Source: Calditrichota bacterium
Lineage (GTDB): Bacteria; Zhuqueibacterota; Zhuqueibacteria; Zhuqueibacterales; Geothermadaptataceae
Assembly: GCA_008501765.1 (NCBI GenBank)
Contig: QQUE01000002.1
Coordinates: forward strand, 308,336 to 372,335
Length of the DNA stretch: 64,000 nucleotides
Direction: 5' to 3'
Every line of letters begins with the position of its first letter. Position 1 is the first letter of the stretch. The notes beneath the pieces were generated by a model. It was not told where the DNA came from. It saw nothing but the letters and a program-made list of their open reading frames with translations, and did no database searches. This document shows, piece after piece, positions 18,291-35,720 of this stretch. Position numbers and translations under genes: made by a program.

Positions 18291-19475
18291 TCAAAGCTGA
18301 ATCCGAAAGGTCGCCCCCTCACCCGGCTGCGATTCTTTTAGGCTCAATTTTCCATCATGATATTCTTCAACGATGCGTTTTGCTAAATTTAAACCCAAAC
18401 CCCAGCCCCTTTTTTTGGTACTGAAACCCGGCCGAAAAATATTTTTCCTCGTTTTTGAATCCATGCCTTTACCATCGTCAATCACGTCGATGATGACAGG
18501 ATACTTCCCCTCTGCAGGTTTCGCAACAATGGTAACATTCCCCTTTTTATTGCCAATGGCATCGAGCGCATTTTTCACCAGATTCTCCAACACCCACTGA
18601 AATAAATTGGCATTGAGCGGCACTTTTTCGATGATGGTCGACTCGGTGTGCAATTCAACTTTTTTCTGCATCTGCGGCAAGCGGCGGTTGTAATAGTGCA
18701 CGACCTCGGCAATGATTTCATCGATGTTTTCCGGTTTTATGTCCGGCTGCGATCCGATCTGAGAGAAACGATGTGCCGCCGTTTCAAGTCGCTGAATATC
18801 CTGCCCGATCTCATCGAGAATTTTTATTTTATCTGGGTGTTCCTCACATTTATCTTTCAGCAAAGCCGACCAGCCCATCAAAGAGGATATCGGTGTCCCG
18901 AGCTGGTGCGCGGTTTCTTTGGCCATACCAACCCAGATAAATTGCTGCTCACTACGGCGAATACTGTTGAAGCCGAAAAATCCGATTAAAATAAAAAGGG
19001 TGACCGCGCCCAGCTCGAAATATGGCAACCACTGCAATTCCTGTACAGATTTTGAATCCCCGTAAATCAAATATCCCAAAATATAATCTTCATATTTCAA
19101 TGGCAGCGGATCGATCTCACTTTTCATGGCGTCAGCAATTTTTTTAACACGAGCCATGTTTTCAGGGGACTGATCGTCACTGGAAATGGCCAACCCTTTC
19201 CAGCCGTTGGGCACACCGTTTTGATCCGTTAATATTATCGGGAAATTGGTGCGTTTAATGATTTCCTCAAAAATGAAATTAAGATTTTCATCGTTGGGCG
19301 AGGATACAGCCTGTTCGTAAAATTGCACATAAAATTCAAGAATACCCCGGGCTTCCTGCCGCAAATCGTCCACGAGTTTTTGTGTATAAAACAGGGCGCC
19401 CACGACAAGCAGAAGTGCGGCAATAAACAGGAAAGATTTGAATTGCGCTCGAAGCTGATAAAGTTTTGTTTTCAT
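18291..19475 (-). CDS. Membrane sensor histidine kinase, orphan
   Basis: A 394-residue protein with a transmembrane helix at about 14-32, an extracytoplasmic sensor segment, a second helix at about 147-166, then a kinase core. The H-box is unusual: AKETAHQLGTPISSLMGW, with His about 185 and LGTP in place of LRTP. The ATPase motifs are LVKNALDAIGNKKG, DDGKGMDSKTRKN and GWGLGLNLAKRIVEEYH. No response regulator lies nearby, so its partner is elsewhere. Its start overlaps the stop of the gene upstream by one base, so it is the last gene of the rpsU-led run. Confidence 0.9.
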   Translation of the reverse strand: MKTKLYQLRAQFKSFLFIAALLLVVGALFYTQKLVDDLRQEARGILEFYVQFYEQAVSSPNDENLNFIFEEIIKRTNFPIILTDQNGVPNGWKGLAISSDDQSPENMARVKKIADAMKSEIDPLPLKYEDYILGYLIYGDSKSVQELQWLPYFELGAVTLFILIGFFGFNSIRRSEQQFIWVGMAKETAHQLGTPISSLMGWSALLKDKCEEHPDKIKILDEIGQDIQRLETAAHRFSQIGSQPDIKPENIDEIIAEVVHYYNRRLPQMQKKVELHTESTIIEKVPLNANLFQWVLENLVKNALDAIGNKKGNVTIVAKPAEGKYPVIIDVIDDGKGMDSKTRKNIFRPGFSTKKRGWGLGLNLAKRIVEEYHDGKLSLKESQPGEGATFRIQL

Positions 19476-33520: not shown

Positions 33521-35212
33521 TCAAATCGAATCGGGAATTTTGTGGCTTTTGTTTATATGCAATATCTTTTGCAAATCCACTTTAAATTGTCGGCGGTCCT
33601 GTGTTTGCAAACCAAATTTCCGGCCGGGAAAATCGGTTAGTTGCGGATAGATAATTGTCGAAATGCCTGCATTTAGTGCCCGCTTTCGCGCCACGATAAA
33701 TTTTTGACGGTACGTTTCCGTGTTCAATTTTATTTTTGGTGCAGATATTTCTTGTGGTGGTGCGACATCCAGCCCGGCGGACCTTTGAAATTGATCGATT
33801 AAATCATCAACGCCATTCACTGCACTAATTGAAGAGTAATTTATTTTTTCCTTTGCCGCTGAAGGTTTTATAATTGACGGTTGAATATATTGTACTTGCA
33901 TTTGCTGCCACTGCTGCTTTTTGATGCAATACTGCAGTGATTTTTTGGAAACTCGCGAATCGCTGCACACACGTTCATCGCAAGAAATGAGGGAGGCAAA
34001 AGAAGCATGCGATTCATATTGCGATAAACAATTTCCGATCGTGCGAGATTTCTCGGCTTCAATATTTTGCCAAACAAGAATCCCAATTTTATCGCACCAA
34101 TAGAACCAGCGGTCGGAAGGCATGCAACCGGAATTAACAATGAGATTAAATCCCATCTTTTTCGCACTTTCGATTTCTGTCCGTACGGCTCGATCGGAGG
34201 GCGCCGTAATTTTTCCATCCGGCCAGTACCCAAAATCCACCACACCCAATTGTAATAATTTTTCCCCATTCAGAAAAACCTGCTGGTCATTTCCAGTGTC
34301 CGGGACAATGCGGTAATCCTTGGCTCCGAAATAACTCCAAACGGAATCGATTGGCACACGATTTTTAAGCAATTTTAGCTGGACTTTATAAAGATGTGGA
34401 TTTTCCGGACTCCAGGGAATTAATTTCGGAATATTAATGTGCATTGCTTTTTCAGGATTGCCCTGCAATCGCGCTACAGGCGTTTTCGCAGCCCAGATTA
34501 TCGTTTCAACAGAAATATTATTTGCCAATCCAACGGCGTCAATTTTTACCTGTATTTGCTTCTTTTTTAAATTGCTTCTAAACTGCACATTAGACATATA
34601 AACGGACGGCACAGGTTCAAGCCACACTGTATTAACAATTCCATGACTGGAAAAATTGTCGGTAGCAGCACCGGAAAACTCACACGTATTCGCTTTTACC
34701 CCAACGATAAGTTCATTTAATCCAACTTTCAAATTACCCGTAATTTCCACCGAGAGCCGTGTATCACAGCTTTCAAATTCGCCCATTTCTACACCATTAA
34801 GAAAAAGAATGCTTTCACCGATAATCCGGTCAAAATGCAGAAATATCCGCGAGCCATCCCAGTTTTGTGGAATCTGAAAATTTCGGCGATACCACATACA
34901 GCATTGGGAATCCATAATGCCTGATAAATTGGCTTCTATGGGAAACGGGATCAAAATTTGGCGGGATAAATTTCTTTCCACAGGGGGAGATTTCAGGTCG
35001 GAGGTGAATTCAAACTGCCATGTACCGTTTAAATTTTTCCACTCCTCACGGACAAACTGCGGCCTCGGATATTCACCATGCACATTTTCAGGATTCACAT
35101 ATTGCGACCATTTCGACAGGAGGCTTGCATTGGCAGGGCGCCAATCAGAAACAGAGTAATAGCTTAAGATTATACCGGTTATAAAAATCAGGGCCAGACG
35201 TGTATTTGTCAT
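33521..35212 (-). CDS. Glycoside hydrolase family 2-like protein, probably inactive
   Basis: A 563-residue exported protein. The signal peptide is followed by the GH2 sugar-binding domain (YPRPQFVREEWKNLNGTW, MWYRRNFQIP, NGVEMGEF), an Ig-like domain and the start of the TIM barrel (KKMGFNLIVNSGCMPSDRWFYWCDKIGILVWQ). In related GH2 enzymes the barrel then carries an Asn-Glu acid/base motif; here the equivalent stretch reads CDERVCSDSRVSKKSLQYC and lacks it. The barrel end is recognisable (STIIYPQLTDFPG). I therefore read it as a decayed or repurposed GH2 protein that may still bind sugar. Confidence 0.72.
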   Translation of the reverse strand: MTNTRLALIFITGIILSYYSVSDWRPANASLLSKWSQYVNPENVHGEYPRPQFVREEWKNLNGTWQFEFTSDLKSPPVERNLSRQILIPFPIEANLSGIMDSQCCMWYRRNFQIPQNWDGSRIFLHFDRIIGESILFLNGVEMGEFESCDTRLSVEITGNLKVGLNELIVGVKANTCEFSGAATDNFSSHGIVNTVWLEPVPSVYMSNVQFRSNLKKKQIQVKIDAVGLANNISVETIIWAAKTPVARLQGNPEKAMHINIPKLIPWSPENPHLYKVQLKLLKNRVPIDSVWSYFGAKDYRIVPDTGNDQQVFLNGEKLLQLGVVDFGYWPDGKITAPSDRAVRTEIESAKKMGFNLIVNSGCMPSDRWFYWCDKIGILVWQNIEAEKSRTIGNCLSQYESHASFASLISCDERVCSDSRVSKKSLQYCIKKQQWQQMQVQYIQPSIIKPSAAKEKINYSSISAVNGVDDLIDQFQRSAGLDVAPPQEISAPKIKLNTETYRQKFIVARKRALNAGISTIIYPQLTDFPGRKFGLQTQDRRQFKVDLQKILHINKSHKIPDSI

Positions 35213-35504
35213 GTTCAGCTTTACCAGAAACAGGTGCGATTGTGTAAATGTTTATCACATTATACGTCCTTGTTTTGGAGAATTAATTTTGACTCCCCAG
35301 CCCTGGAGATTCATAGAACAAATAAAAGACCAAGAGATATTCATTGTTCTTTTCATTATTAGAATCAATACCTGATATTGCGTACAAGTGGAGAAAAAAA
35401 ATACCTACATTAATACTTTTTTAGATTCGGTGTGCCAAAAACATGGTACCAGAAAAAACCATAACCACTTGCAATCCATTGAAAGGAATTATCAAGAGAA
35501 TAAT
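35213..35504. other. AT-rich gap upstream of GH2-like gene
   Basis: No gene is seen between the GH2-like gene and the structured RNA. It probably contains the promoter of the GH2-like gene. Confidence 0.35.
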
Positions 35505-35685
35505 AAAGAAGAAGCCCTGTGGGCCTAACTCCGCAGGGCTTCTGTAGAATTCAGATACCCCGGTATCCTTCCGGGGGCAGGATGATATCCCGTCCTAGTC
35601 TCAGCGAGCCCTTTTTATGGTTACCTACCTTCCCTGGCGGGCGGCCCGATTGAGCTAAATCCTGTCGAGAGTATCGCCTTTAGTT
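35505..35685 (-). ncRNA. Structured non-coding RNA of about 180 nt, own promoter and terminator
   Basis: On the minus strand a good sigma-70-like promoter (TTGTTA at 35715-35720, 17-base spacer, TAATAT at 35692-35697) leads into a GC-rich tract in an AT-rich gap. Nested pairings are visible: GATAC/GTATC (35671-35675 with 35554-35558), CAGGAT/ATCCTG (35659-35664 with 35578-35583) and UAGCUCA/UGAGACUA (35651-35657 with 35596-35603). There is also a side hairpin CCCGG/CCGGG (35559-35576) and a terminal ten-pair hairpin GAAGCCCTG/CAGGGCTTC (35510-35543). No open frame fits. Size and shape (closing stem, bubble with side hairpin, long arm) leave 6S RNA or another housekeeping RNA as possibilities; I could not match it to a family. 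Confidence 0.6.
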
Positions 35686-35691
35686 ATATGA

Positions 35692-35720
35692 ATATTAATT
35701 ATTTAGCATTGTTGTAACAA
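35692..35720 (-). promoter_or_regulatory. Promoter of the structured RNA
   Basis: TTGTTA and TAATAT are spaced by 17 bases on the minus strand, placing the start of transcription near 35685. Confidence 0.5.

Follow-up and report, generated by a model that had tools for sequence, protein, structure and literature searches.

The window, a 64,000-nucleotide stretch of contig QQUE01000002.1 from a Calditrichota bacterium (genome G000), carries on its minus strand, at about 35680 to 35505, a compact, GC-rich folded element, downstream of which lies a gene resembling glycoside hydrolase family 2. We infer the start and end positions of the corresponding RNA, which would measure about 165 nt. The features of the locus are as follows.

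35683-35720, minus strand: promoter-like block, TTGTTA (35720-35715), a 17-base spacer and TAATAT (35697-35692)
35683-35688, minus strand: second -10 candidate, TATAAC, just downstream of TAATAT
35549-35678, minus strand: putative structured RNA core of 130 nt, homologous to L002:1521-1651 in the congener G001
35675-35671 with 35558-35554, minus strand: P1 closing stem, GAUAC/GUAUC, invariant in both sequences
35664-35659 with 35583-35578, minus strand: P2, CAGGAT/ATCCTG, pairing present
35596-35657, minus strand: arm A, comprising P3 (UAGCUCA/UGAG(N)CUA; in the window copy TAGCTCA/TGAG(A)CTA, 35657-35651 with 35603-35596), P4 (CGGGC/GCUCG) and the P5 hairpin with loop AGGGA
35578-35592, minus strand: arm B, local hairpin P2b, CRGGAU/AUCCUG, with a 3-nt loop
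35559-35575, minus strand: arm C, side hairpin P6 with loop AAGGAUA
35505-35543, minus strand: intrinsic terminator, AGAAGCCCUG..CAGGGCUUCU with loop GGAGUUAGG and a T-rich tail, a match in the terminator scan
35510-35543, minus strand: the terminal hairpin itself, with the T-rich run next to it
33521-35212, minus strand: glycoside-hydrolase-family-2-like gene (Pfam PF02837/PF00703)

The nested pairings described in the first-pass annotation (GATAC/GTATC, CAGGAT/ATCCTG and TAGCTCA/TGAG(A)CTA) are all present on the minus strand, and so are its side hairpin (35575-35559) and its terminal hairpin (35543-35510), the latter followed by a T-rich run. The promoter had been called textbook, which overstates it, as TTGTTA-17-TAATAT matches the consensus at 8 of 12 positions and a promoter scan at 9/12 matches reported nothing at this block; the block is nonetheless conserved in G001, where the alignment gives CTGTTA-17-TAAAAT and TATAAT. 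Direct reading of the RNA strand shows neither AUG nor GUG nor UUG, and the RNA is present in a single copy in the genome. The stretch TTTAGCTCAATCGG at 35644-35660 resembles a tRNA D-arm, possibly by chance; ARAGORN found no tRNA.

Searching 99 relatives at the DNA level gave a single strong homologue, which belongs to the congener G001 (E 2.4e-51, 84% identity over 193 nt), with the RNA itself being 86% identical between the two. In the alignment, conservation begins at TGTTACAACA in the promoter block and ends at the terminator; beyond these limits, the upstream flank and the greater part of the gap downstream show no relation. A promoter (weak by consensus) and an intrinsic terminator are thus conserved together with the body, as expected of a stand-alone sRNA gene. 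The same genome pair shows 55% identity for the neighbouring protein against 86% for the RNA, and the true 6S RNA (see below) is somewhat more conserved than this RNA.

The two copies differ by 25 substitutions over 173 aligned positions. Scored against a cloverleaf-like structure plus terminator, these leave 4 broken pairs in the window copy where randomly placed changes would be expected to leave 9.0 (P = 0.016), in a test that leans in favour of the structure, partly derived from the G001 copy as it is, and that rests on two sequences in which most pairs are invariant and hence uninformative. Five altered pairs can still form; in one of them, located in the terminator, both partners have changed. 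In four of the five a G-U pair is involved, which would turn into a mismatch on the plus strand; this speaks for the minus strand as the RNA strand. Within P5 the changes are C.A to U-A and G.U to G-C around a conserved AGGGA loop; P2b in arm B shows G.U to A-U, and P6 shows C-G to U.G with its AAGGAUA loop identical in both species. Between the species the terminator combines a double compensatory G-C to A-U change with a U-A to U.G change and a conserved loop. P1 is invariant in both sequences and therefore provides no covariation evidence. The first-pass annotation had held that a lack of compensatory changes in homologous regions would count against the RNA; one double change of this kind is found in the G001 copy (n = 2 sequences). 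The decisive support for a structured RNA is comparative.

Compared with dinucleotide shuffles, folding energy alone gives the window copy a modest z = -2.1, and its plus strand is about equal at z = -2.0, whereas the G001 copy folds more strongly (z = -3.5, 0 of 200 shuffles). Of the named-helix combinations that were tried, the one favoured in both species is a four-armed fold, in which P1 closes the junction and three arms extend from it. The AUCCUG strand has two possible partners, and pairs either with the local CRGGAU (P2b) or with the distant CAGGAU at 35664-35659 (P2), P2b being about 2-3 kcal/mol more stable in both species when the structures are otherwise equal. In these models, two CAGGAU-type strands can therefore compete for one AUCCUG strand.

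A covariance model built from homologues, as had been proposed earlier, was obtained from the two copies (R1), and its convincing matches were those same two, in G000 and G001, among all 63 genomes of the class and the broader set of 99 relatives. Weak matches in G073 (E 0.008) and G043 (E 0.08) are both short, and four other genomes of the family gave no match. The further congener G002 is 67% complete, and its relevant contig starts inside the neighbouring gene. As far as seen in these genomes, the RNA appears restricted to one genus.

When 12 window genes were compared with the 19 kb surrounding the RNA in G001, the glycoside-hydrolase-like gene proved to be the sole shared neighbour: the gene after the RNA in G001 encodes a protein with 55% amino acid identity to that in the window, and the start codon lies about 300 nt (window) or 280 nt (G001) past the terminator. 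RNA and gene thus stand together in both genomes showing both, in differing surroundings, a linkage for which a functional connection, a leader acting in cis and joint movement would each account. In G002 the gene adjoins a kinase gene, a relative of which is found at 18291-19475 of the window; across the three genomes the gene has different neighbours each time. Its protein is strongly diverged within the genus (55% and 43% identity), and the alignment shows no obvious conserved catalytic motif. A second conserved block, (T/A)TGAATCTCCAGGGC(T/C)GGGGAGTCAA, is found at 35225-35310 of the window (minus strand) and at about 1880-1935 of L002. It consists of an imperfect inverted repeat with a TATAAT-like site after it, and judged from its sequence it may represent the operator and promoter of the glycoside-hydrolase-like gene.

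We then consider what kind of RNA this could be. An all-Rfam scan, as advised in the first-pass annotation, yielded no family: the whole window gave no match at gathering scores, riboswitch aptamers included, and either copy gave chance matches only at permissive thresholds. SRP RNA, tmRNA and RNase P RNA are each encoded elsewhere in the genome, so that these identities are rejected, in line with the earlier failure to recognize any of the three here. 6S RNA had been put forward as a candidate from size and shape. The Rfam 6S model (RF00013) matches 58 of 79 relatives and none in this genus, and a divergent 6S RNA was therefore plausible at first; the RNA is similar in length to 6S RNA, is a stand-alone gene with its own promoter and has an extended, rod-like arm. 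However, a phylum-specific model (R2), built from an alignment of 38 6S RNAs of relatives, finds one 6S RNA in each of G000, G001 and G002 at another locus (E 8e-21 to 2e-21), namely the following.

G000:C15:132005-132128: canonical 6S RNA (R2, 85.5 bits, E 8e-21)
G001:C6:15413-15536: 6S orthologue (R2)
G002:C566:2559-2682: 6S orthologue (R2)

On the RNA described here R2 gives no match, and the conserved 6S blocks of the phylum, GUGUAUUAC, GUAAAAA and GGUGCCCACCGUG, are all absent from it. In 6S RNA, long closing and apical stems flank a symmetric central bubble, which imitates an open promoter; the predicted folds of our RNA differ, with a P1 of only 5 bp and a junction bearing two extra hairpins. 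The 6S identity is thereby refuted, and we assign it next to no residual probability, as it would now require another 6S copy altered beyond recognition.

That the RNA sequesters CsrA in the manner of RsmY, RsmZ or CsrB, titrating the genome's single CsrA through GGA motifs in its loops, would agree with several of its properties: it resembles these RNAs in being a stand-alone sRNA with an intrinsic terminator at its end and GGA in hairpin loops, the window copy has 7 GGA, all conserved (8 in G001), the P5, P6 and terminator loops contain GGA or border on it, and CsrA is encoded in G000, G001 and G002. Against dinucleotide shuffles, however, GGA is not clearly enriched (P = 0.33 for the window copy, 0.04 for that of G001), most relatives have CsrA yet lack this RNA, and there is no Rfam CsrB/Rsm match. 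By sequence reading, csrA directly follows a fliW-like gene, next to a flagellar hook-associated gene (L211 1000-1764 on G000:C12), so that CsrA is probably FliW-controlled in this lineage; a study on Campylobacter (PMC4894983) describes control of CsrA by FliW and not by an sRNA. We regard a CsrA sponge as improbable. Less probable still is the view that the locus holds no RNA gene and was conserved as DNA, or that it belongs with the neighbouring gene to a small mobile cassette. Such a cassette would explain why the surroundings of the RNA-gene pair differ between G000 and G001 and why the gene adjoins different genes again in G002, but the element is single-copy, no mobile-element hallmark was seen, searches for phage, plasmid and viral-contig matches returned none, and the substitutions preserve RNA pairing, in part by G-U pairs that form on one strand only.

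Chief among the rivals is a cis-acting 5' leader of the glycoside-hydrolase-like gene, an attenuator or riboswitch-like element whose terminator would halt transcription in one fold and allow it in another, the two CAGGAU strands acting as the switch. Like attenuating leaders, the RNA precedes one and the same gene, on its strand, in two genomes with otherwise unshared surroundings, ends in an intrinsic terminator and can form mutually exclusive pairings within a few kcal/mol of each other. Unlike them, it ends 280-300 nt before the start codon across a mostly unconserved gap, and the TATAAT-like site in the second conserved block suggests, by sequence reading, that the gene likely has a separate promoter of its own. 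No pairing able to disrupt the terminator stem was seen either. Conserved complementarity between the RNA and the gene's leader does not clearly exceed controls: the best conserved match reaches 24.2, the reversed and complement controls 18.5-21.8. As this match is not kept by compensation either, base-pairing between the RNA and that leader is unsupported. Taken together, we consider a leader unlikely, albeit the strongest of the competing explanations. Slightly more doubtful yet is a speculative extension in which the RNA represents a new class in one genus of uncultured bacteria, where a two-state CAGGAU/AUCCUG switch would expose or hide the conserved loops and in this way regulate the glycoside-hydrolase-like gene linked to it, or else trans targets.

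We therefore favour, at a probability of roughly 0.6, a stand-alone non-coding RNA gene of about 165 nt with its own sigma-70-type promoter, its own intrinsic terminator and a P1-closed junction with three arms, most likely acting as a regulator in trans. The first-pass description of an unassigned, stand-alone structured RNA is thus borne out by the lack of an Rfam match, by a homologue with structure-keeping changes and by the lack of a start codon, and the sequence comparison suggests a conserved small RNA of a new sequence family that is probably transcribed. In the mechanism we propose, transcription would start from the sigma-70-type promoter and be ended by the intrinsic terminator. The RNA would then fold into the GAUAC/GUAUC-closed junction with its three arms, in which AUCCUG would pair locally or with the 5'-proximal CAGGAU. 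It would act in trans through conserved unpaired segments, these being the loops AGGGA, AAGGAUA and GGAGUUAGG together with the A-rich run preceding GGGCUCG, which may contact their targets by base-pairing with messages or by protein binding. The regulatory role in trans, though most likely, is an inference from these features. With its promoter, structured body and terminator, its intergenic position and its narrow range, the RNA resembles species- or genus-restricted trans-acting sRNAs, while differing from those known in that its sequence family has not been described before.

Small RNAs confined to a single genus are a common find in bacteria that have been studied well, and for that reason we rate the interest of this one as moderate. 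The comparison also recovered the 6S RNA of the genus, missed by Rfam RF00013, with a lineage-specific model (E about 1e-21). As 6S RNA, SRP RNA, tmRNA and RNase P RNA are all encoded elsewhere in the genome, the RNA described here is not simply filling one of those four roles. In a lineage that has received little study, it is a candidate new RNA family with clear boundaries.
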